DNA of 64,000 nucleotides. Source: Methanospirillum hungatei JF-1. GTDB lineage: Archaea > Halobacteriota > Methanomicrobia > Methanomicrobiales > Methanospirillaceae. The DNA lies in contig NC_007796.1 of the NCBI RefSeq assembly GCF_000013445.1, positions 558,001-622,000 on the forward strand, in the 5' to 3' direction. Under the pieces are notes generated by a model, which saw only the letters and a program-made list of their open reading frames with translations, did no database searches and was not told the origin of the DNA. Within the stretch, counting starts at the first letter, position 1; each line of letters opens with the position of its first letter. The translations under genes and the position numbers were made by a program. Shown in pieces: positions 35,638 through 47,202 of the stretch.

Positions 35638-36336
35638 TTAATCCCGACGTTCCACAATCCAGGATTCATTGTCTTCCCTGACAAAAAGAACCGGACTGTG
35701 ATTAATCCTCATTGGCTGGGGGAACTTTCGAAACCGGACTTCTCCTGAGTCAATTGATCTTCCGTCAAGTGAATATACTGCAGGAATTCCTGCATCATGA
35801 ATCGCAGAAATCTCTGCCTGACCCTGCAGGGTTCTGATCTTTCCAACCTGTATATATCTCCCGTCTGATCCACCTGCCGCCAGGCCCACGGCTGCAAGAG
35901 ATCCGATAATGCCCCCTTTTGTGCCATCAAGCCCGATGAGTCGGACTCCTGTGTGTGATGCCATTGTAATCGCCTGGTCCTGGGTGAGGACAGTAGATTT
36001 TGCTTCTTTTCCAAAGAGAATGAGAGCTGGTGTGACAGACTCATGGTCAGTCATACAGACTCCCGGATCACTCCCCTTCGCTGCCCGGGATTGAACAAAT
36101 TGTGCTACCTCTTCAAAAAGTGCATCTCGTTCTTCATGAGGAACTGCATGAACATGAATGACTGCAGCACTATTATGTGACGTGTATGGAATGTCCGGGT
36201 GAACATAGAGCTGGTGCCGGGTAATCCCAAGAAGATGGTATCGATGTTCGAGCAGACTGAACAAATCCCTGGCAAGTCTGCCGGTTCCCGGGCTGTCAGG
36301 CATATCGGTATCATCCAGTGCAATATATACAGTCAT
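35638..36336 (-). CDS. TiaS-N-domain-like protein
   Basis: A 232-residue protein whose opening (VYIALDDTDMPDSPGTGRLA) matches the N-terminal kinase-like domain of TiaS, the enzyme that makes agmatidine in archaeal tRNA-Ile. Further matches are HPDIPYTSHNSAAVIHV and a Gly-rich segment (GTKGGIIGSLAAVGLAAGG). The catalytic and OB-fold parts of full-length TiaS (over 400 residues) are absent, so it is unlikely to be TiaS itself. It may act on a nucleotide or a related substrate. The function remains open. Confidence 0.72.
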   Translation of the reverse strand: MTVYIALDDTDMPDSPGTGRLARDLFSLLEHRYHLLGITRHQLYVHPDIPYTSHNSAAVIHVHAVPHEERDALFEEVAQFVQSRAAKGSDPGVCMTDHESVTPALILFGKEAKSTVLTQDQAITMASHTGVRLIGLDGTKGGIIGSLAAVGLAAGGSDGRYIQVGKIRTLQGQAEISAIHDAGIPAVYSLDGRSIDSGEVRFRKFPQPMRINHSPVLFVREDNESWIVERRD

Positions 36337-36653
36337 GTTATATGTCCTGTCACCCGGATGCGTGGGTGATAATTCTTCTTACAGGTACACTGAGTAGGGT
36401 ATCATTCTTCTGATTTGAATCACGAAAAAATAGTTTAGACAAGGAAAGACCATTAATATGAGTTCTGCAATATCAATTGGATATCACTTGATATATTCTT
36501 ATTAACTATGTTTGTAAATGTAAATAATTTTCATGTTGCCTGACACAGTATAGGTGAGGATGAGAAGTCAGAATATGGCTCTTGAGATCCATCGGGAACC
36601 GGAACATTACAATCCGATCCACTTTCCGGACTTTTTGGGTTTCTTCTCACTCC
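36337..36653. other. Intergenic stretch of about 320 bases
   Basis: No gene. It contains TTGGATATCACTTGATATA at 36477-36495, which resembles half of the dyad in front of the storage-protein gene, and T-rich sequence that may be promoter for the gene at 36336. I see no RNA gene. Confidence 0.4.
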
Positions 36654-36998
36654 TCATTTTGTGACCTTTAATATTTCATCAAACATGGCTGATCCAATCA
36701 GGGATGCACTCTCTTCCGGATGAAGATCAGACATGACTGAAACAATTTTTTGGGTCCCCTTGCTGGTTGTCAGTATTCCCACCCGCTCAGCTCGTGTTAC
36801 CAGTTCCTGTTCTTCCATCATGGCAAAGTACGGTAGTATATAGTAGTGAGGTACCTCGAGGTACTCGGCAAGGCGCCGGGTAGTTGGAAACCTGATATGA
36901 ATCCCTTCTTTAGAAAATGTGATTGAAATCGCGTTATCTTCGAAAAGGAAAATTTTTACTGCAGATTCGAAGAGGCCTTCGATTGAGAGCGATGGCAT
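36654..36998 (-). CDS. Small HTH-like protein, conserved-looking
   Basis: A 114-residue protein with a likely winged-helix core: FPTTRRLAEYLEVPHYYILP (helix-turn-helix) followed by MMEEQELVTRAERVGILTTS (wing). The first 40 residues form a short beta unit (KIFLFEDNAISITFSKEGIH). It may be a regulator or a small structural partner; I cannot name a family. It lies 45 bases downstream of the 67-residue gene on the same strand, so the two may be co-transcribed. Confidence 0.68.
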   Translation of the reverse strand: MPSLSIEGLFESAVKIFLFEDNAISITFSKEGIHIRFPTTRRLAEYLEVPHYYILPYFAMMEEQELVTRAERVGILTTSKGTQKIVSVMSDLHPEESASLIGSAMFDEILKVTK

Positions 36999-37043: not shown

Positions 37044-37247
37044 TTAGTGTTTTTTCTTCTGGTCATCAGGGACAGGCTCAAGCCAGACAATTTCAGCGCC
37101 GACTTCTTTTGCAATCATTTCAAGTTCTATCTTTCTGAAATGGGTTGCAACAACCTGGATCTGTCCACCGGTAACTGCCACAATCCGATACTTCGGGCTT
37201 TTAACTCCTGCCCCGACCTTTTGTCTTTCACGTACAAAAATTTTCAT
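37044..37247 (-). CDS. 67-residue basic protein
   Basis: A small soluble protein with beta strands RIVAVTGGQIQVVATHF and EIVWLEP around a helix (KIELEMIAKEVGAE). The ATG has AGGTGACC upstream. The size and the neat start support a real gene. I do not know its function. It is divergent from the Mo-storage-like gene, and the dyad in the shared spacer could serve both. Confidence 0.68.
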   Translation of the reverse strand: MKIFVRERQKVGAGVKSPKYRIVAVTGGQIQVVATHFRKIELEMIAKEVGAEIVWLEPVPDDQKKKH

Positions 37248-37266
37248 TTTTGGTCACCTCTTGGAA

Positions 37267-37301
37267 CCAATTGATATATGCTCAAGTGATATACCAGTTG
37301 G
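37267..37301. promoter_or_regulatory. Inverted repeat between two divergent genes
   Basis: Arms CCAATTGATATAT and, read inward from the other side, CCAACTGGTATAT match at 11 of 13 positions around a 9-base centre. It lies 60-90 bases before the storage-protein start. Similar sequences (ATACCAATTG, ACTGGTATTTCA) lie upstream of the tungstate transporter, so a common metal-responsive regulator is possible. Confidence 0.5.
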
Positions 37302-37357
37302 TTTTCAACAATTTATCTATATGATCTTCACGTATTTATATATTGTTGTGGTGATCC

Positions 37358-38173
37358 ATGCACGAGCGACATGAAATTTTTAACAAACTCCAGGGCGAAA
37401 CTCTGGTTCGAAAAGGATTATTTGACCGGTATAATGAGCGCCCGCTCATGCGAATTCTTCCTGAACTGAATGTCATCAAGATCGGCGGACATGGGATCAT
37501 TGATTATGGCCGCGATGTTGTTCTCCCCCTGGTAGATGAGATTGGTGCTCTCTCAAAGGAACATCAGGTGATGATCATCACCGGAGGAGGAGTCCGCGTC
37601 CGGCATATCATGGATATCGGGCTTGACCTTGGAATGCCAACCGGGGTACTCGCAGAACTGACCAGTAAGATCTCTGAACAGAACGCAATGATGCTTGCAA
37701 CACTTCTCGCGCCTTACAAAGCGAAACGAATACACACCAGTGATCTTCTGGAGCTCCCGACACTTCTTGGCATGGGCGCTCTCCCGGTTACGCATGGAAC
37801 TCCCCCTTATGGTTTGTATGAACACCCTTCAGAGCGCACGAATGGTGGTATCCCTCCCCACCGGACTGATACCGGTGCCTTTCTTGCAGCAGAAGTCCTC
37901 GGGGCGAAAAGCTGTATTCTTGCAAAGAATGTAGACGGGCTCTATGACAAGCATCCCCTGAAATTTCCTGATGCAGAACTCATTCCTGATATTTCCGCAA
38001 GTGAATTGATTGCAATGGATATGGAAGATCTTGTTCTTGAACGAAAACTCGTCGAACTGATGCTTGAGTGTCGGAATGTCAAAGAAGTTCAGATAGTGAA
38101 CGGACATAAACCCGGAATGATAACCAGGGCAGTCAAAGGCGAAAAGGTTGGAACCATTATCCGTGCTCAGTAA
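37358..38173 (+). CDS. Molybdenum/tungsten storage-type protein (MosA/MosB-like amino-acid kinase fold)
   Basis: A 271-residue protein of the amino-acid-kinase superfamily. Its closest recognisable relatives are the two subunits of Azotobacter molybdenum storage protein, which use ATP to pack polyoxomolybdate or tungstate inside a cage. Shared blocks are RILPELNVIKIGGHGIIDYG, PLVDEIGALSKEHQV, ITGGGVRVRH, GMPTGVLAELTSKISEQNA, PPHRTDTGAFLAAE, NVDGLYDKHP and the ending VQIVNGHKPGMITRA with GEKVGTIIRA. Only one gene is present, so the cage would be a homo-oligomer. A uridylate-kinase-like enzyme is the alternative, but the N-terminal match and the nearby transporters favour storage. Confidence 0.78.
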   Translation: MHERHEIFNKLQGETLVRKGLFDRYNERPLMRILPELNVIKIGGHGIIDYGRDVVLPLVDEIGALSKEHQVMIITGGGVRVRHIMDIGLDLGMPTGVLAELTSKISEQNAMMLATLLAPYKAKRIHTSDLLELPTLLGMGALPVTHGTPPYGLYEHPSERTNGGIPPHRTDTGAFLAAEVLGAKSCILAKNVDGLYDKHPLKFPDAELIPDISASELIAMDMEDLVLERKLVELMLECRNVKEVQIVNGHKPGMITRAVKGEKVGTIIRAQ

Positions 38174-38323
38174 TAGACACCTGGTGTGTTACCCAAATCG
38201 GGACTATTCATAGTCCATTTTCTGAACCTGCGGGTATGCCGGTTCAGCCATCAGGTGATGTTGATTGATGATTTCATTTTTAATTCTAAACACTCCTATA
38301 AGCGTAAGGAACAAATATCTGAT

Positions 38324-38605
38324 ATGGATATGCTGCTCTATACCGGATACATCGGGGGGATATGCACAACAATTGCATTTCTTCCCCAGGTTGTCAAGAC
38401 ATGGAAAAGCAGGTCGGCACATGACCTCTCCTGGGGACTCTTATTCCTGCTTCTTATCGGTGTCTTTCTCTGGATGATTTACGGAATAGTCAGTGCCGAT
38501 ATTCCGGTCATGCTTGCAAATGGAGTAACAAGTGTATTCATCGTCTCAATCGTGGGGATGAAATGGTGGTTTGATCACCGGTTGGCTGGGAAAGCAGGTA
38601 AATAA
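38324..38605 (+). CDS. SemiSWEET/PQ-loop membrane protein
   Basis: A 93-residue protein with three membrane helices: LLYTGYIGGICTTIAFLPQV, LSWGLLFLLLIGVFLWMIYG and PVMLANGVTSVFIVSIVGMK. This is the MtN3/SemiSWEET triple-helix unit, including the PQ motif (FLPQVVKTWKSRSAHDLS). Such units dimerise to carry sugars or other small solutes. I chose the ATG next to the first helix; the upstream extension is not hydrophobic and lacks homology-like features. Its stop directly abuts the stop of the convergent MOT1-like gene. Confidence 0.83.
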   Translation: MDMLLYTGYIGGICTTIAFLPQVVKTWKSRSAHDLSWGLLFLLLIGVFLWMIYGIVSADIPVMLANGVTSVFIVSIVGMKWWFDHRLAGKAGK

Positions 38606-39736
38606 CTACTGCTGTCTCGTTTTCAGATGTTCTTTTCGGTATATCAGTATCCAGGCCAGAATCAGCCCTGCACAAAACCCTATCGCAAGACCAAACAGGA
38701 CCGCTAGTACCGCAATAAGGCCGGTAATCCAATAATTATCTGTTTTTAGTCCGTGCTTTGCAAGTTCAACGGCAACCACAATGAGAAGGACTCCGAACAT
38801 CCCAACAGGAAGGGCATCGGTAATTTCCGGGTCTGCACAGAGTATTCCTATAAGAAAAAGAAGTATTCCCCCAAGTATTAATGAAAGCCCGCCCCTGGCA
38901 CCAAACCGGTAATGGGCCGCCAGCCCTCCTGCTCCATGACACATGGGAAATCCTCCGAATAGTGATGCTGACAGACTCATCATGCCGACCGTTTTACAGA
39001 TTTTATCCGGGTTCATCTCTCTTTTAAACAAATCATGTGCCAGAAGAGATGTCGCAAGTATTGCATTTGTCAGGGTCAGGGGGAGCTGAGGAGGAACAAA
39101 ATGAATTGTTGCATTAAAAAAATCTTCAGGTGATGGAATCTGAAGATTGGGGACAGGAATGGAGATGAAGGTTGGAAATCCTGCACTGAGGAAAGCTACG
39201 ATAAAGCCTGAAATAATGATGGTCAGCGCAGAGAGATCCGGAATTTTTACAAATCTCGTACTAATTAAAAATCCGGCTACAATCCCTACCGATATGAGTG
39301 CAAAAGGTATATCCGGGAGAATAAATCCCGGAATTGCGCTTTTAATGAAAATCAGTGCCAGGCCCAGCTGAACTCCCCTGATAACCGGTTCAGGAATAAT
39401 CTGTCTGACACGGTCCATCCAACCAAAAAACCCGATGCACAGACATATGATACCCATTACAATACCCGACGCTGCTATCAGGTGAGGGGTGACAGACTCA
39501 GCAATGGCAATGGCACCGACTGCTTTGAGCGGTTCAACCGGGATGGGAATTCGATAGTAGAGCCCCGTAATTATGTACCATGCAGCAGCCCACAGAAGCA
39601 TAAGGGAGATATTCATTCCGCATGATACCGAAACGGCAAAAAGAAGTGGAAGGACAGTTCCAAAATTACCTGCCGAACCGGCCAGCTCTGAAAGAAAATA
39701 TGAATATCGGGGAACTGACTGATCAGAGACAGGCAT
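38606..39736 (-). CDS. MOT1-like molybdate/sulfate permease
   Basis: An integral membrane protein of about 376 residues with some ten helices, related to the SulP superfamily and closest to MOT1-type molybdate transporters. Family blocks: ELAGSAGNFGTVLPLLFAVS near the start, PVEPLKAVGAIAIAE, PVIRGVQLGLALIFIKSAIP and GGFPMCHGAGGLAAHYRFGA. The ATG at 39736 has GGAAGA upstream and overlaps the tungstate ATPase gene by 14 bases. It is therefore translated from the same message as the ABC transporter, giving two routes for oxyanion uptake in one operon. Confidence 0.85.
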   Translation of the reverse strand: MPVSDQSVPRYSYFLSELAGSAGNFGTVLPLLFAVSVSCGMNISLMLLWAAAWYIITGLYYRIPIPVEPLKAVGAIAIAESVTPHLIAASGIVMGIICLCIGFFGWMDRVRQIIPEPVIRGVQLGLALIFIKSAIPGFILPDIPFALISVGIVAGFLISTRFVKIPDLSALTIIISGFIVAFLSAGFPTFISIPVPNLQIPSPEDFFNATIHFVPPQLPLTLTNAILATSLLAHDLFKREMNPDKICKTVGMMSLSASLFGGFPMCHGAGGLAAHYRFGARGGLSLILGGILLFLIGILCADPEITDALPVGMFGVLLIVVAVELAKHGLKTDNYWITGLIAVLAVLFGLAIGFCAGLILAWILIYRKEHLKTRQQ

Positions 39737-40817
39737 TATCGTTCTCTTCCGGCATGATGTGGACTGACGGAGCTTTAAATGAAAGCACAACCTCCACCCC
39801 TGGTTTCAGGTCCAATTCACGAATTGACTGCCAGGTTACCTGAACTGAAAGGGCAAGTTCTCCGGATTTTACACTGATAAGGCTGATAATACCAAATGGT
39901 CGCACTGCATCGATTGTTCCAAAGAGAACATTCCGGGCACTTGACCATCGGTCCGGGCCGGTATGCAACGTGATCTCTTCGGGCCGTATGGCCATCCTGA
40001 TCTGGGTTCCTACGGGGATGTCACCAATTGCATGGATCTCGATTCCATGTGACAGAATAACTGACATTCCCTCTTCCTTTCTTATGACTTTTCCAGGGAG
40101 AATGTTCCCCATCCCGATAAATTTTGCAACGTCAACAGAACAGGGACGGGTAAATACATCAAAAATGGTCCCGGACTGAATAAATCGTCCATTCATCATG
40201 ACCGCGACCCGATCAGCAAGCCGTTGCCCCTGCATGAGGTCATGGGTAGACATGATGACAGTCGTGCCAAGTTCCTTATTATAATAGCGGATGAGATCTT
40301 CGATAATATCGGTTGAAACAGGATCAAGGTTGGCAGTAGGCTCATCAAGAATCAGGATATCAGGTTCGGTTACCATTATCCTGGCCAAAGATATCCGTTG
40401 TTTTTCTCCACCGGAGAGGGTCGTTGCTTTCCGGTTTTCATACCCTGAAAGCCCGATTTCATCCAGCTTCTGCAGGATTTTCTCATTTATCGCCTCTTTT
40501 CCAAAACCCCGGTACCAAAGACCGATCGCGATGTTATGGTACACCGATTCCCTGAAGGCAATAGGATTTTGAAAGACCATACCGATGCGTCTTCGGACCG
40601 GGTCAGTCTCCGAAACATGGGTGAGGGATTTCCCTTCTAACAGGACCTCTCCTGATGTTGGTTTTTGAAGAAGTCCGAGAATTCTCAGCAATGTGGTTTT
40701 TCCCTGTCCTGAAGGTCCGATGATTGCAAAGATCTCTCCTTTCCTGATTGTTTCAGTTACACCGGTCAGGACGGGATTTCCATCAAATTCTTTCGTGATA
40801 TTTCTGATGTCAATCAT
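39723..40817 (-). CDS. tupC: Tungstate/molybdate ABC transporter ATPase with TOBE domain
   Basis: The ATP-binding subunit drives tungstate import. It has Walker A (GPSGQGKTT), the signature LSGGEKQR, Walker B (DILILDEPTANLDP) and the switch histidine (MSTHDL). After about residue 240 a C-terminal TOBE/MOP-like region (MAIRPEEITLH, VLFGTIDAVRPFG, ALSVQVTWQSIRELDL) could bind oxyanion and shut the pump when the cell is replete. The start has AGGAACGAG upstream and lies 7 bases after the permease stop. Sequence alone does not separate Tup from Wtp types; the permease and binding protein favour Tup. Confidence 0.88.
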   Translation of the reverse strand: MIDIRNITKEFDGNPVLTGVTETIRKGEIFAIIGPSGQGKTTLLRILGLLQKPTSGEVLLEGKSLTHVSETDPVRRRIGMVFQNPIAFRESVYHNIAIGLWYRGFGKEAINEKILQKLDEIGLSGYENRKATTLSGGEKQRISLARIMVTEPDILILDEPTANLDPVSTDIIEDLIRYYNKELGTTVIMSTHDLMQGQRLADRVAVMMNGRFIQSGTIFDVFTRPCSVDVAKFIGMGNILPGKVIRKEEGMSVILSHGIEIHAIGDIPVGTQIRMAIRPEEITLHTGPDRWSSARNVLFGTIDAVRPFGIISLISVKSGELALSVQVTWQSIRELDLKPGVEVVLSFKAPSVHIMPEENDNACL

Positions 40818-40824
40818 CTCGTTC

Positions 40825-41511
40825 CTACCTGTTCTGTACCAGTCCCATGAAGAGATTGATAATAAGCGCAATGGCCAGAAGAATAATTCCAAGAGCCAAT
40901 GAAAGATTAAAATTTCCCATTGATGTCTGCAGGGATATTGCGGTGGTAAGCACTCGTGTATGACCTTTAATATTACCACCAATCATAATTGCTGTGCCGA
41001 CTTCAGAAATCGCCCGTGAAAAACCCACAATAACTGCAGCCATGATGGCAAATCGCGCTTCACGAAGATGACTTTTTAAAAACTGGAACCGTGATGCTCC
41101 AAGTGATCGGATGGTATCGGTAATAATCGGGTCTATCGCCTGAAGTGCTGCAATTGTGAGGCCGGCCATAATCGGGATGATAAGGATGGTTTGACCAAAT
41201 ATCATACCATTCGGTGTAAATAACCATTTTAAATCTCCAAGTGGTCCGGATCTTGAAAGAAGCATATAACAGAGGAGACCAACAATGACCGTAGGAAGTG
41301 CATACAGAGTTTGTATAACACTAATCAGTGCCTTTTTTCCATGAAATTCCCTGAAGGTGATAGCTGCTCCAAGCGGTATTGCAATAATGGTACTGATCAA
41401 TACCGAAGAAAAGGTTATATGCAGAGTTCTGATTGTTATGTTCAGCACTTCAGGATCTGCGGTCAGTATGAGATGAAATGCAGTCTCAATACCGGTAAGC
41501 AGATCGTTCAT
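40825..41511 (-). CDS. tupB: Tungstate ABC transporter permease
   Basis: A 228-residue inner-membrane permease with about five helices. The ABC permease loop that docks on the ATPase is visible as EARFAIMAAVIVGFSRAISEVG, with the EAA-type Gly. The opening (LNITIRTLHITFSSVLIST) and LLSRSGPLGDLKWLFTPNGM fit the TupB class. It lies 37 bases after the binding-protein gene and just before the ATPase, so the three genes form one operon. Confidence 0.9.
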   Translation of the reverse strand: MNDLLTGIETAFHLILTADPEVLNITIRTLHITFSSVLISTIIAIPLGAAITFREFHGKKALISVIQTLYALPTVIVGLLCYMLLSRSGPLGDLKWLFTPNGMIFGQTILIIPIMAGLTIAALQAIDPIITDTIRSLGASRFQFLKSHLREARFAIMAAVIVGFSRAISEVGTAIMIGGNIKGHTRVLTTAISLQTSMGNFNLSLALGIILLAIALIINLFMGLVQNR

Positions 41512-41548
41512 AATAATAATTGTTGTGAAAAGAAAAGAACGGTGTGGA

Positions 41549-42472
41549 TTATGCCACCTTGTCGGTGGTCTCTTCCACGGTCACGCCCATTACTTCTGCA
41601 CTACCCCGTCCGGGGTTAAAGTATGGTACCCCGTTCTTTTCGACTCCATAGGTCGAGAGGATATCCTGGACTTCATCACTGATCATGAAGTTGATCCACT
41701 TCTTTGCCATCTCAGTGTTGACATCCGGACATTTCTCTTCAGATACACGCATGACCGCATAGACATTCAGGAAGTTCTCATCATTTTCAACCAGTGGGAC
41801 AAGTGAGAGGTTGCTCTCGAAGGTTCCCCAGGAGGCTGAGTCAGTTAAGGTGTACCCCTGAAGTTCGTCTGTCATGGTAAGGGTTGGGCCCATACCTGCG
41901 CCAGCTTCACGGTACCATTCTGAGGAGTTGATCTCTGCATAGTCATACCCGCCCCATTTCCACAGGAGTTTCTCACGTGAATGGGTTCCGGAATTATCTC
42001 CACGGGATACGAAAACGACGCTTGGATCCTCTGCAGTTGCCTTCTCAATTGCCATGAAGGCTGCTGTTCCGTTCAGTCCGGCTACCTTTGCCGGGTCATT
42101 TTCCGGTCCGACTAAAAGGAAGTAGTTGTACCCGAAGACACGACGATCGACACCGAATCCTTCATCAATAAACTTGTCTTCTGCAACACGGTCGTGAACC
42201 ATCACAATATCTGCATCACAGTTTTTTGCAATTTCAATAGCCTGGCCGGTTCCAACAGCTACATGTTCTACTGTTGCACCGGTCTCTTCCTTGAATTTCT
42301 CTTCAAGAAGATCAAGAAGCTTGGTTGCGTCAAGACTCGTTGTGGTTGCGATGAGAAGACGGTCTGCACTATGTTCTCCGAGATTATCAACCTTTTCTGC
42401 AGATACTGCCCCACAGAAAAGCATTGCCCCCAGCACAAGAGCAATGATCCCAAACGATAATTTACCGATCAT
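41549..42472 (-). CDS. tupA: Tungstate-binding protein TupA
   Basis: The extracytoplasmic substrate-binding protein, 307 residues, with a signal peptide (IGKLSFGIIALVLGAMLFCG then AVSA). The TupA oxyanion-binding motifs are present: TTTSLDATKLLD and SRGDNSGTHSREK. These bind tungstate very tightly and distinguish it from molybdate- and sulfate-binding ModA and CysP. It heads the operon tupA-tupB-tupC-MOT1. There is no ribosome binding site, and a TATA box about 30 bases upstream suggests a leaderless message. Confidence 0.92.
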   Translation of the reverse strand: MIGKLSFGIIALVLGAMLFCGAVSAEKVDNLGEHSADRLLIATTTSLDATKLLDLLEEKFKEETGATVEHVAVGTGQAIEIAKNCDADIVMVHDRVAEDKFIDEGFGVDRRVFGYNYFLLVGPENDPAKVAGLNGTAAFMAIEKATAEDPSVVFVSRGDNSGTHSREKLLWKWGGYDYAEINSSEWYREAGAGMGPTLTMTDELQGYTLTDSASWGTFESNLSLVPLVENDENFLNVYAVMRVSEEKCPDVNTEMAKKWINFMISDEVQDILSTYGVEKNGVPYFNPGRGSAEVMGVTVEETTDKVA

Positions 42473-42823
42473 GCAATACGAGATCGTCGTGTAATAATAT
42501 ATATTTGTTTAATTGTCCTCTTGAGTAAAACAATTGTTCAATCAACTGTAATACCAATTGATTTTAATGTCGGGTGACAGAAAATACCGAATAATTCTCC
42601 ATATATTCTTCATATTTTCCCGCTCATTATGAATTCATGGGTATGGATCATTCCTGCTCAATGAATAAATTTTTATTATTCCTTGTTGACTGGTATTTCA
42701 TACCGAAAAAGACATCCTGTTAAGAGGTATTATGAGATACTCTGGAAAAAAATTCATGCGTTCTATTGATATTATAAATTTCTTTAAATTATAGTATGGG
42801 AGATCCAGTCTGTTTAGCTGCAT
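42473..42823. promoter_or_regulatory. Divergent control region between tupA and alkA
   Basis: A 350-base A+T-rich spacer. It holds ATACCAATTG (42551-42560) and the dyad GGTAT-TTC-ATACC (42692-42704) inside ACTGGTATTTCA (42689-42700); both resemble parts of the inverted repeat before the storage-protein gene. These are candidate operators for a tungstate/molybdate regulator. No gene is seen here. Confidence 0.45.
42495..42506 (-). promoter_or_regulatory. TATA box of the tungstate operon
   Basis: Read on the minus strand it is AAATATATATTA, centred about 28 bases before the tupA ATG. That spacing would start transcription only a few bases before the start codon, so the message should be leaderless. 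Confidence 0.55.
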
Positions 42824-43791: not shown

Positions 43792-43965
43792 ATGGATGTG
43801 AAAACTTCAAACATCATCACCATGGTAGCCGGTGTCATATTCGTTCTCCTCGGAATAAATAACATCATGCAGGGAACAGCCTGGTGGCGTTATATCACTT
43901 TTGTTATCGGTATTATTATCCTTGCTCTCGGAGCCTATGGATATAAAACAGGAAAGAGGTTTTAA
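43792..43965 (+). CDS. Small two-helix membrane protein
   Basis: A 57-residue protein with two membrane helices (IITMVAGVIFVLLGINNIMQ and YITFVIGIIILALGAYGYKT). I do not recognise a family. The start is preceded by the end of alkA by about 40 bases, so it could be co-transcribed with it. Its stop overlaps the stop of convergent moaE by 4 bases. Confidence 0.62.
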   Translation: MDVKTSNIITMVAGVIFVLLGINNIMQGTAWWRYITFVIGIIILALGAYGYKTGKRF

Positions 43966-44369
43966 CTTCCCTCTTCCTTTGAAAAATGCCAGGACTCTCC
44001 GTTTTTACAGATGTCTTTCTTCCAGATAGGGACGAATGCTTTAATCTGCTCTAATATCCATGAACAGGCTGCAAATCCTTCCTGCCGGTGAGATACACCA
44101 ACGACGATGACCAATATCGTCTCGGTCAGTTCCATCCGTCCGACCCGGTGCACGATATCAACGGTATTCAGGTGATAATCGGCGGTTGCCTGCTTTGCTA
44201 TCGTATTCAGGTCAGATAATGCAACCTCTTCACACACATCAAGGTCAAGTGCTTCTATGCCATCATCCCTGACCGTTCCGATAAAGGTAACAATCCCTCC
44301 GGTCTCGGGTTTCTTTGCTGATTCAATGAATTTGTACGGATCAATCGGGTCACGGGTAATCGCAATCAT
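43962..44369 (-). CDS. moaE: Molybdopterin synthase catalytic subunit MoaE
   Basis: MoaE transfers sulfur from thiocarboxylated MoaD to precursor Z, making molybdopterin (tungstopterin in many methanogens). The 135-residue protein has GGIVTFIGTVRD, VHRVGRMELTETILVIVVG, SHRQEGFAACSWILEQIK and the active-site lysine motif PIWKKD. It is the last gene of the ycaO-tfuA-moeB-moaD-moaE operon, 2 bases after moaD. Confidence 0.93.
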   Translation of the reverse strand: MIAITRDPIDPYKFIESAKKPETGGIVTFIGTVRDDGIEALDLDVCEEVALSDLNTIAKQATADYHLNTVDIVHRVGRMELTETILVIVVGVSHRQEGFAACSWILEQIKAFVPIWKKDICKNGESWHFSKEEGS

Positions 44370-44371
44370 CG

Positions 44372-44647
44372 TTATCCTCCTGAAACCGGCGGGAAGAGAA
44401 TGATCAGATCACCATCTGCGAGTGGAACTGATTCTGCCTCCATCGGTGAAATACGGGTATCATGATGCATGATCATAACATAACTTCTGATATTGTGTGC
44501 AGTATCAACGAGCAGCTCAGCATCCGGACCATCTCCTGCAAGAGCTCTGACCGCATCATGAATCGTTGATCCTTCCGGAAGGTCAAGGGTTTGTTCTTCT
44601 CCAAATGCATCCCTGAATCGTGCATAACACCGAATCGTAACCTTCAT
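44372..44647 (-). CDS. moaD: Molybdopterin synthase sulfur carrier MoaD
   Basis: A 91-residue ubiquitin-fold protein whose C-terminal Gly-Gly (LFPPVSGG) is adenylated by MoeB and then carries sulfur as a thiocarboxylate to MoaE. The beta-grasp strands VTIRCYARFRDAFGE and DGDLIILFPP are clear. It overlaps moeB by 4 bases (ATGA). The same C-terminus could in principle donate sulfur to other acceptors. Confidence 0.92.
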   Translation of the reverse strand: MKVTIRCYARFRDAFGEEQTLDLPEGSTIHDAVRALAGDGPDAELLVDTAHNIRSYVMIMHHDTRISPMEAESVPLADGDLIILFPPVSGG

Positions 44648-45396
44648 TCATTATCTCCTTTATAAGAACATACCGGACAGTTCTTCCGCTTACCAATCGT
44701 TAAAAATTCACTTCTACCCGCCTGTCCGTCCCAGAGGAATAACCTTCCTGATATCATAGACCCGGTTCCGGTCAGGTATTTTATTGCCTCCATTGCCTGT
44801 ATGGATCCAATAACTCCTGCAACGGCGCCAATAACCGGAACTTTCCCGCCAGGAGGTGCAGCGGGGATAAGGCAGGAAAGGCAGGGGGACTGACCGGGGA
44901 GGATGCTCGTCATCTGGCCTGAAAATCCTTCTATCGCTCCATGAATAAATGGAATATCTGCGTTCCAGGCTGATTCATGCAGAATGAACCGTGTTTCATA
45001 GTTATCCAGGGCATCAATGACCACATCTGCGTCTGCAACAAGCCGATCTGCTGATCCCTCATCAATCCGCCCAGGATATGCAACAACCGATGTATCCGGT
45101 GCGAGGCTGCCAAGAGTTGCCTCAGCTGAATATACCTTCTGGAGACCGACAGATGCAGCGGCGTGCAGAAACTGCCGGTTCAGGTTTGACTCCTGAATAC
45201 GATCATCATCGACAATAATCAGTTCTCCAATACCTGCCAGGGCAAGATAGGTTGCTGCAGGTGATCCAAGTCCTCCTGCCCCGGCAATGAGGATTGTGGA
45301 ATTTTCCAGTTTCTTCTGTCCCTCATGGCCGATAAGAGGCAATTGCCTCTCAAATCGGCTGGATAGATATGATGGCGGTATTTTTTTCATGAACAA
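44644..45396 (-). CDS. moeB: MoeB/ThiF-type adenylyltransferase
   Basis: An E1-like enzyme of 250 residues that activates the C-terminus of MoaD with ATP. It has the nucleotide loop AGAGGLGSPAATYLALAG, the arginine finger SNLNRQFLH, DALDNYETR, and two zinc CxxC pairs (CLSC and CPVC). No rhodanese domain is attached. It overlaps the end of tfuA by 10 bases and moaD by 4, so all three are translated as a block. ThiF or HesA function is an alternative, but the neighbours favour MoeB. Confidence 0.9.
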   Translation of the reverse strand: MFMKKIPPSYLSSRFERQLPLIGHEGQKKLENSTILIAGAGGLGSPAATYLALAGIGELIIVDDDRIQESNLNRQFLHAAASVGLQKVYSAEATLGSLAPDTSVVAYPGRIDEGSADRLVADADVVIDALDNYETRFILHESAWNADIPFIHGAIEGFSGQMTSILPGQSPCLSCLIPAAPPGGKVPVIGAVAGVIGSIQAMEAIKYLTGTGSMISGRLFLWDGQAGRSEFLTIGKRKNCPVCSYKGDNE

Positions 45397-46028
45397 AACC
45401 TGTCTCTGATGTACGCAAGGGTTTCTTTTGCGTCTTCCTGCTTTTGATCAATCCGATGTTCTCTGATCCATTTCATCATCTCGTCTGTCCGGTCTGGATC
45501 AAAGGTGCATTCTTTCAGGATGCGTGGCCATGACCGATCCGGATACCAGAGTGACTGTCCGGTTCTCAGGATCTGTTCTGCTTCATCTTCCGTGAAAAAT
45601 CCAGTTCTGACCCCATGCCGGAGGGTGATCCGGATATTTACCAGCGCCTCAGAAAAGGCCATGTTTGTTGTGGGGTCACATATCAGGGCCACTTCATCAT
45701 CTGATTCGATCTCCCCGTCCCGGTACATTCTGAAGATCTCACCAATTCCAATCATGCCAAATGGTTCAAGTTCTGCGGCACGGAGCGCGCCCATGCTTGA
45801 GGCACCGATGACGGTAATTCCATGTTTCATCACTTCAAGGACTTCCCGGTGACCAACGGCGGCATCCTCAAAGAACACTCCATCAATGATTCCAACCACT
45901 CTGGGTCTTATATGTATGATCTCAAGGAGATCAACCCGTCTTACCGGTGGACGGTATTCGGCTGCAAGGATCCTCAGAGCTTCAGGAATCGACAGGCTTG
46001 GTCCCAGGAATATAATTACGTCGTGCAC
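45387..46028 (-). CDS. tfuA: TfuA, partner of YcaO thioamidation
   Basis: TfuA works with YcaO to change the peptide backbone of a glycine in methyl-coenzyme M reductase into a thioamide, probably by handling sulfide. The protein has the family opening DVIIFLGPSLSIPEALRIL, then GIIDGVFFEDAAVGHREVLE, GASSMGALRAAEL and GEIFRMYRDGEIESDDEVAL. The start is unclear: I chose a GTG directly before the conserved region. ATGs at 46067 and 46088 would extend it inside the ycaO coding end. It overlaps ycaO by about 47 bases. Confidence 0.88.
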   Translation of the reverse strand: MHDVIIFLGPSLSIPEALRILAAEYRPPVRRVDLLEIIHIRPRVVGIIDGVFFEDAAVGHREVLEVMKHGITVIGASSMGALRAAELEPFGMIGIGEIFRMYRDGEIESDDEVALICDPTTNMAFSEALVNIRITLRHGVRTGFFTEDEAEQILRTGQSLWYPDRSWPRILKECTFDPDRTDEMMKWIREHRIDQKQEDAKETLAYIRDRFCS

Positions 46029-47202
46029 GTCTACACCGTTCTCCGATACGTTCGGGATCCATTGCATAGTGTTCAAGTCCAGGCACAATTACTCTGACAA
46101 CCGGCACCCCAATCTCCGGTCTGGTCAGGTCATGTACGATCACCCGGTCAAGTCCTGCTGCTTTCAAGCGGTCAAGAACGATGTGAATGTCATCCAGAAA
46201 GTCATCGGTATGGTATGATGGCATATCTTTGTATGCGATTTCCGCTTCGGTGGTAAACCATTTTTTATTCAATCGCTTGGCGCGGTCGTATCCGACTTTT
46301 GAGAGGAAATGAGTTGTTTTTGTATCTTCCCGTGCTCCATGGATCTGTGTGGCCCTGCTCTGGGCTACTTCTGTAAGGGCTCTGAGAATTGCAATCTCAC
46401 TGCAGAGATGTGATCCCATTCCGATGCACAGGAGCGTCGGATCGCGAAGCTGGAGATCATCTGATACTGCCGCGACGGTCGGGATTCCAAGGTCACTTGT
46501 GATATCGCGCAAAATTACATCTACCCCGGCCTCTTTAAACTTGTCAAGAAGTTCACGGGCAACCGGGTGGGTCACGTCTGTTATCGCCGGACCTGCATTC
46601 TGTGATGCTTCTACCAATGACCAGGCGTCCCGCTCTATAAGTTCACACAGGCTGTGAAAGACTGCTTCTTCATAGGTATTGCCTGATGCGATTCCGTTTG
46701 TACTGGTCCTGAATAACTTCCCCATGATCCGGGGTACCGGATGAAAGACTGCATGTGCAGGAACCCAAACCTCTTCGTTGCGGAGGATATCATATCCCTG
46801 CCACCAGGGAATAGGCCATTCCGGTTCTGCATATTCGGGAAGAATGAGAGTATCTGGTCGTATTGCATTCTTCTCCATACGAATCTGGTCATAGGTCATG
46901 GTCTGCGGGCTGCGGTCATGGACCTCTGCTGAATATCGTTCAAGACCTTCCATAATTGCCGATACTCTTGCAGCGATGGGGGTTGCTCCTTTCCCATTAT
47001 ATACCGTTATGGCGCCTTCGGCAGCAACCGGACGAATACAGGAAAAAACAGGGATGCCTATTCTGTCAAGACCGGTGATATCAGCAACCCTGGTAATTCC
47101 GGCCGGCCCGGTGAGGTCATGGACTGCTTCATAAGTCTCTTCTGGAGATCTGGTCCGATGAGTCTCCTTTTGGTAGAGTTTTTTGCAGGACGAGAGTATC
47201 AT
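45982..47202 (-). CDS. ycaO: YcaO-domain thioamidation enzyme
   Basis: A 406-residue ATP-dependent YcaO protein. In methanogens it phosphorylates the amide of a conserved McrA glycine so that sulfur can replace oxygen. Family blocks: KGATPIAARVSAIMEGLERYSAE (ATP/Mg region), TNGIASGNTYEEAVFHSLCELIERDAW and RALTEVAQSRATQIHGAREDT. The C-terminus is Pro-poor and ends in GTKPVDS. It opens an operon with tfuA, moeB, moaD and moaE. McrA itself is not in the window. A role in making a ribosomal peptide is less likely, as no precursor peptide is visible. Confidence 0.9.
   Translation of the reverse strand: MILSSCKKLYQKETHRTRSPEETYEAVHDLTGPAGITRVADITGLDRIGIPVFSCIRPVAAEGAITVYNGKGATPIAARVSAIMEGLERYSAEVHDRSPQTMTYDQIRMEKNAIRPDTLILPEYAEPEWPIPWWQGYDILRNEEVWVPAHAVFHPVPRIMGKLFRTSTNGIASGNTYEEAVFHSLCELIERDAWSLVEASQNAGPAITDVTHPVARELLDKFKEAGVDVILRDITSDLGIPTVAAVSDDLQLRDPTLLCIGMGSHLCSEIAILRALTEVAQSRATQIHGAREDTKTTHFLSKVGYDRAKRLNKKWFTTEAEIAYKDMPSYHTDDFLDDIHIVLDRLKAAGLDRVIVHDLTRPEIGVPVVRVIVPGLEHYAMDPERIGERCRRARRNYIPGTKPVDS

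Follow-up and report, generated by a model that had tools for sequence, protein, structure and literature searches.

Introduction

Can a methanogenic archaeon lay up molybdenum or tungsten in a dedicated protein store, and if so, which genes would belong to such a system? This question is raised by a stretch of 64,000 nucleotides from Methanospirillum hungatei JF-1 (NC_007796.1, positions 558,001 to 622,000; hereafter the window, in whose numbering all coordinates are given), where a gene at 37358-38173 on the forward strand encodes a 271-residue protein resembling the molybdenum storage protein (MoSto), a textbook example of polyoxometalate chemistry in biology. MoSto is described as storing both molybdenum and tungsten in an ATP-dependent manner (PMC6448029, PMC4504029), and a 2019 study presents it as unique and without known homologues in protein databases (PMC6448029).

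The analysis reported here suggests that the locus is likely to be a regulated module for molybdenum and tungsten homeostasis, made up of a MoSto-type store, a small partner protein and a winged-helix regulator. The genes for the latter two lie upstream of the MoSto-like gene, and were left out of the interval (37358-42472) that a first-pass annotation of the window had singled out. Comparisons were made across 392 sampled genomes of the phylum, 67 of which were MoSto-positive, and gene context was compared in 40 loci picked from these 67 genomes, mostly on long contigs.

Identity of the MoSto-like protein

In phmmer searches against the PDB, the window protein matches MosB with an E-value of 1.2e-59 (205 bits) and MosA with an E-value of about 1e-51 (178 bits), sharing 47% and 43% identity with them, respectively, over 240-258 residues, whereas the best uridine monophosphate kinase (UMPK) match reaches 9e-10 (42 bits). 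An insert of the form PPY...IPPxR(T/A)D is common to the window protein, MosA and MosB and occurs in none of three UMPKs. In addition, the columns shared by 57 archaeal, 79 MosA and 77 MosB rows include K41, G43, G44, D49 and R80, together with R82, H83, P149, R169 and D171.

A conventional kinase of uridylate or of another nucleotide would have the same amino-acid-kinase fold, and PF00696, which denotes that fold, is the only Pfam match of the window protein; the NCBIfam model pyrH_arch also gives 80.7 bits, although this is about half its cut-off of 158.05. Because Pfam provides the fold alone and pyrH_arch half its cut-off, a kinase label would probably come from automatic annotation. Unlike the window protein, archaeal UMPK (PyrH) lacks the MoSto insert, scores far lower and falls on a separate branch, and a separate UMPK-like gene (L160) is present elsewhere in the genome. 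UMPK identity was thus rejected on scores, insert and tree, and the kinase reading is scarcely credible, even though forcing the window protein together with UMPKs costs only 3.6 log units (p 0.057), so that the approximately unbiased test by itself gives no rejection.

For the trees, 237 open reading frames of the family were reduced to 213 by merging those with identical C-termini; a tree of 81 proteins was built after thinning out archaeal rows more than 90% identical, and smaller subsets were used in two later trees. In the 81-protein tree, a branch supported at 95/93 parts 43 archaeal, 15 MosA and 15 MosB proteins from the other kinases, the outgroup being UMP, isopentenyl-phosphate, acetylglutamate and MfnE kinases. 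With UMPKs as the sole outgroup, three of them are separated from all 28 MoSto-type rows at 100/97, and the condition that the first-pass annotation had set for its own refutation, a tree with the protein firmly inside uridylate or other nucleotide kinases, did not arise. The outgroup branches are very long, and the outgroup of a quick tree, made up of UMP and isopentenyl-phosphate kinases, fell apart, so family membership was made to rest more on the scores and the insert. By these, the window protein is a true homologue of MosA and MosB, lying outside the UMPKs.

The first-pass annotation had also proposed a single subunit gene, and this holds well beyond the window: one MoSto gene is present in the complete 3,544,738-bp genome, and 59 of the 67 positive genomes have a single match. 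Two tandem copies occur in seven genomes, all of one genus, and the remaining genome (G340) has three MoSto pieces on three contigs. In bacteria, mosB and mosA are adjacent in 79 of 80 loci (kept from 372 confirmed genome stretches), and the remaining locus is on a short, cut contig. Trees prefer a grouping of MosA with MosB (100/99 in the 81-protein tree and 94/99 in the tree with the UMPK outgroup); however, neither the placement of archaeal rows with MosB nor that with MosA is rejected (p 0.30 each; p 0.52 for MosB in the quick tree), and because these alternative groupings stand, we do not place the bacterial alpha/beta duplication after the split from archaea. As a separate observation, one of the 59 single matches, in G331, is partial and carries an in-frame stop (TGA; G331:C1:954018-954341) while the small gene is retained, perhaps reflecting a recent loss.

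A small protein that accompanies MoSto

Divergent from the MoSto gene lies a gene for a 67-residue protein of no known family (37044-37247, reverse strand), the strictly co-occurring and most novel part of the archaeal MoSto system. It is the most constant neighbor of MoSto, being found in 38 of the 40 loci (42 copies), and a profile search of the sampled genomes returned matches in 70, namely all 67 with MoSto and three of the 325 others. These three are incomplete (70-85%) and belong to one genus, whose other positive genomes have MoSto. At least eight genera (g2, g4, g13, g14, g16, g19, g21 and g24; listings compared by hand) are mixed, some of their genomes having the pair and others neither gene, so the match between the two proteins is not merely the legacy of one shared ancestor. 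The pair is also duplicated as such: in the genus with tandem copies, MoSto and the small gene are both doubled in all seven positive genomes, and in three genomes each small copy is closer to its counterpart in other species (0.77-0.94) than to its sister (0.59-0.64). The genomes with this tandem duplication are G140, G153, G172, G237, G252, G295 and G389; G305 (L067) shows another arrangement, with two adjacent, diverged 67-residue genes and one MoSto gene.

What the small protein resembles is less easily stated. No Pfam or NCBIfam family was found at usable E-values, and no PDB sequence matched under E 0.18. An AlphaFold2 (AF2) model of moderate confidence (predicted local distance difference test, pLDDT, 82.6) has the order strand-strand-helix-strand; its best Foldseek match has an E-value of 0.083, and the best structural alignment (Z 4.1 at 6-7 Å root-mean-square deviation) is to complex I chains, such weak matches not amounting to evidence of a new fold. 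Residues R6, R8, P18, A24, H36, R38 and E43 are invariant in the family. From its occurrence, the 67-residue protein would be a dedicated MoSto partner.

A candidate regulator and a palindrome

Downstream of the small gene, a 114-residue protein encoded at 36654-36998 (reverse strand) is predicted to be a winged-helix DNA-binding protein and is the candidate regulator of the locus. Its AF2 model (pLDDT 94) is a winged helix, for which the best Foldseek matches are of the DtxR/IdeR/MntR type (E 1.5e-3), and alignment to 2it0_A by VIA-align gives a Z-score of 8.1 at 2.5 Å over 76 residues. The likeness to these metal-dependent repressors is one of predicted fold only, as the DtxR-type sequence match is weak (E 1.2) and Pfam returns no match, and a Z-score of about 8 may reflect just the common winged helix. 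The gene is found in 31 of the 40 loci and away from the locus in four more genomes, where one copy has an in-frame stop, for a total of 35 of 40. In G373 and in the MoSto-less G355, less than 1 kb separates it from tupA, the gene for a tungstate-binding protein.

The first-pass annotation had mentioned a motif shared across the locus without giving its letters. Such a motif was found as the palindrome ATACCARYTGGTAT, an operator-like site that stands in the promoter region between the divergent small and MoSto genes (37291-37304, forward strand) and recurs about 85 bp upstream of tupA (42551-42564, forward strand; one mismatch, position weight matrix (PWM) score 13.8). A degenerate second copy (37264-37277, reverse strand; two mismatches, PWM score 10.4) lies about 27 bp from the first. 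Within the window alone the palindrome is not significant, as five matches were found against 2.95 expected and 24 of 100 shuffles reached this count.

Its conservation among homologous loci is another matter. In 37 intergenic regions, the window included, in which the small gene is divergent from MoSto at a distance of at most 450 bp, 12 have an exact copy, nine a copy with one mismatch and seven a copy with two; these 28 of 37 regions compare with 0.17 expected in order-1 random sequence. A PWM score of 13 or more is reached by 58 sites in 721 kb, against two in one random set of equal size, and 47 of the 58 lie no more than 300 bp upstream of the small gene. The palindrome also tracks the candidate regulator: among the 40 genomes examined, such a site stands upstream of the small gene in all 35 with the winged-helix gene and in none of the five without it, and it is this contrast, not the score, that counts as evidence, because the profile was trained on sites of the same loci. 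In the tandem loci L046, L047 and L070, it is kept at one of the two promoters.

Elsewhere the palindrome is sparse. Sites with a PWM score of 13 or more occur in three of 28 regions upstream of tupA, the site in the window among them (four of 29, with 0.06 expected for 29, before removal of L058, whose site position at the end of the locus was an artefact of coordinates), and in none of 31 MOT1 and 30 tupC upstream regions. The M. hungatei genome contains two perfect 12-mer sites, one at this locus and one inside an open reading frame of 1329 residues; around some of its 69 sites with at most one mismatch, 20 regions outside the window were viewed, and no clear molybdenum or tungsten gene was recognized by eye.

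Uptake genes and the metal served

The first-pass annotation had placed the MoSto-like protein, a MOT1-like carrier and TupABC within 5 kb, and all of these genes are indeed there. The MOT1-like molybdate carrier (38606-39739, reverse strand) matches PF16983 at 172 bits (cut-off 30). At higher coordinates on the same strand lie genes for a TupC-like ABC ATPase with a TOBE domain (39723-40817; PF00005 and PF03459; WtpC at 263 bits, cut-off 440), a TupB-like permease (40825-41511; NF041773 at 173 bits, cut-off 320) and a TupA-like tungstate-binding protein (41549-42472; NF041772 at 196 bits, cut-off 400, and PF12849). The best specific NCBIfam matches, TupA, TupB and WtpC, point to the kind of transporter, and the order tupA-tupB-tupC fits TupABC, with all three scores below the NCBI equivalog cut-offs.

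The link to tungstate uptake suggested in the first-pass annotation proves to be general, as TupA is present in 64 of the 67 MoSto genomes and in 123 of the 325 others. Its mention of diazotrophs as the setting of MoSto applies to the bacterial protein and does not carry over to this archaeon: nifD is found in nine of the 67 MoSto genomes and in 66 of the 325 others (both comparisons being uncorrected for relatedness), and in this genome it is absent. The genome of strain JF-1 is described as 3.54 Mb in size with 45.1% G+C and without nif genes (PMC11346949). That MoSto supplies molybdenum for nitrogenase, a role it has in Azotobacter vinelandii (PMC6448029), is therefore very improbable here, and this explanation was rejected on the nifD counts.

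Methanogenesis itself depends on pterin enzymes that use these metals, namely the tungsten- or molybdenum-containing formylmethanofuran and formate dehydrogenases. Because TupA is common and nifD rare among MoSto genomes, and because MoSto is known to take up both tungsten and molybdenum, the archaeal protein would most likely be a reserve of either metal for these enzymes. The stored metal may be tungsten rather than molybdenum, a suggestion tempered by the MOT1-like carriers that are also found near MoSto (31 gene matches in the 40 loci).

A cytoplasmic tungstate store alongside TupABC has also been proposed for Tub/Mop of Eubacterium limosum (PMC11980592). Unlike MoSto, it has an unrelated fold and is a TOBE hexamer binding eight tungstates, with ATP-driven loading not mentioned in the portions of that report drawn on here (PMC11980592).

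Other neighboring genes

Between MoSto and MOT1 lies a gene for a SemiSWEET transporter (38321-38605, forward strand; NF037968 at 91.4 bits, cut-off 80), which is also present in the two nearest relatives (L031 and L032). Just past tupA, the reverse strand of 43962-47202 carries MoaE-like, ubiquitin-like MoaD-type and ThiF/MoeB-like genes and, beyond them, genes for the McrA thioglycine modification proteins TfuA and YcaO; profiles were used to identify MoaE and TfuA, and the remaining genes were named from sequence. Neither SemiSWEET, found near MoSto in few of the 40 loci, nor MoaE/MoaD/MoeB is generally conserved there, and SemiSWEET is probably outside the storage system. On the other side, the product of 35638-36336 (reverse strand) scores below cut-offs with the TiaS TCKD domain and methanogenesis marker 11, both of which it resembles; its family has 12 gene matches near MoSto over the 40 loci, and a weak palindrome is located at 36480, upstream of this gene.

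Proposed mechanism and alternatives

Homology, linkage, co-occurrence and the joint conservation of palindrome and regulator are results of computation, and from them we infer the following mechanism. Molybdate and tungstate would enter the cell via MOT1 and TupABC. The MoSto-family protein, probably a homohexamer because it is made from one gene, would spend ATP to load the oxyanion and keep it as polyoxometalate clusters for pterin enzymes, not for nitrogenase, and the 67-residue partner would most likely assist in the loading, gating or unloading of the cage. Metal status would be sensed by the winged-helix protein, which, by binding ATACCARYTGGTAT, would control the promoter from which the small gene and MoSto diverge as well as its own gene, located downstream of the small gene, with weaker control over tupA. 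In a more specific version, to which we give somewhat less than an even chance, archaeal MoSto would be a two-part machine in which a one-gene cage has an obligate 67-residue subunit or gatekeeper as well as its own regulator and operator; the machine would bank tungsten for use in methanogenesis and might preserve the single-subunit state from before the duplication.

Several observations weigh against this mechanism, the first of which concerns the metal site. Ligands of the MosA cluster include Glu129 and His156 (PMC4504029). Among 79 bacterial MosA sequences, E129 is kept in 77 and H156 in 79. So is H140 in all 79, a residue that we take to be a further cluster ligand. The archaeal rows, 57 in number, have His in place of E129 in 40, Leu in place of H140 in 49 and Gly in place of H156 in 54, and the window protein has H126, L136 and G152 at these positions. 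Because these ligands are not kept, the cluster chemistry of the archaeal protein may be different or absent. Other candidate residues are conserved in the archaeal rows, namely H45 (55 of 57), D129 (57), H146 (43), E155 (57) and H250 (56). With mostly a single gene and with the MosA ligands replaced, the archaeal protein is accordingly to be classed, on present alignments, as a MoSto variant and not as the alpha-beta MoSto of the A. vinelandii type, a mosB-mosA pair with which it shares the insert and core residues. It also differs from the A. vinelandii system in its surroundings, where genes for molybdenum and tungsten uptake, for a regulator and for a small partner are found, and in having no tie to nif.

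The loss of the three cluster ligands, combined with the tight linkage of MoSto to the regulator, might suggest that the homologue is a metal buffer or sensor, which would bind single oxyanions and signal to the regulator instead of forming a bulk polyoxometalate store. We consider this improbable, as the core residues and the insert of MoSto are kept and five MoSto genomes have no regulator.

The small protein and the regulator also give reason for caution. The 67-residue protein was not found in 16 bacterial MoSto genomes, a search without a positive control of its own, although the same profile matched 70 archaeal genomes; bacterial cages thus seem to manage without it. For both flanking proteins, no convincing homologue was found in bacterial mosBA loci (best E 0.03). 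The regulator is not exclusive to MoSto genomes, since among 25 genomes of the order that have no MoSto, two (G285 and G355) carry it. Finally, in six loci (L035, L036, L037, L043, L044 and L069) in which MoSto lies away from the small gene or does not diverge from it, the palindrome is found with the small gene and none is found at MoSto. Because the palindrome stays with the small gene after separation, MoSto itself may not be its main target.

This last behavior, together with the presence of the regulator gene near the small gene in 31 of the 40 loci, would fit a different division of labor in which MoSto stores the metal while the 67-residue protein acts on the winged-helix protein, as its co-factor or its inhibitor, and so links metal status to transcription. 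Such a role is nevertheless unlikely, since genomes without the regulator (G126, G187, G062, G019 and G029) still carry the small protein along with MoSto, whereas G285 and G355 carry the regulator with neither MoSto nor the small protein. Moreover, the small gene is duplicated with MoSto, while each of three tandem loci has one regulator copy. A partner of the cage, as proposed above, remains our preferred reading of the small protein.

Conclusion

In the literature searched, outside which most subscription papers lie, no paper on an archaeal or methanogen MoSto homologue was found, and the archaeal MoSto variant, which is real and conserved, has apparently been undescribed so far. If the proposed mechanism is correct, the single-gene archaeal branch would provide a simpler cage in which to study the ATP-driven entry of oxyanions into a protein shell, would show by what means methanogens lay up a trace metal essential to them, and would bring forward two uncharacterized protein families whose roles are specific and testable. 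Overall, methanogens may stockpile molybdenum and tungsten by a system that has apparently not been described before.

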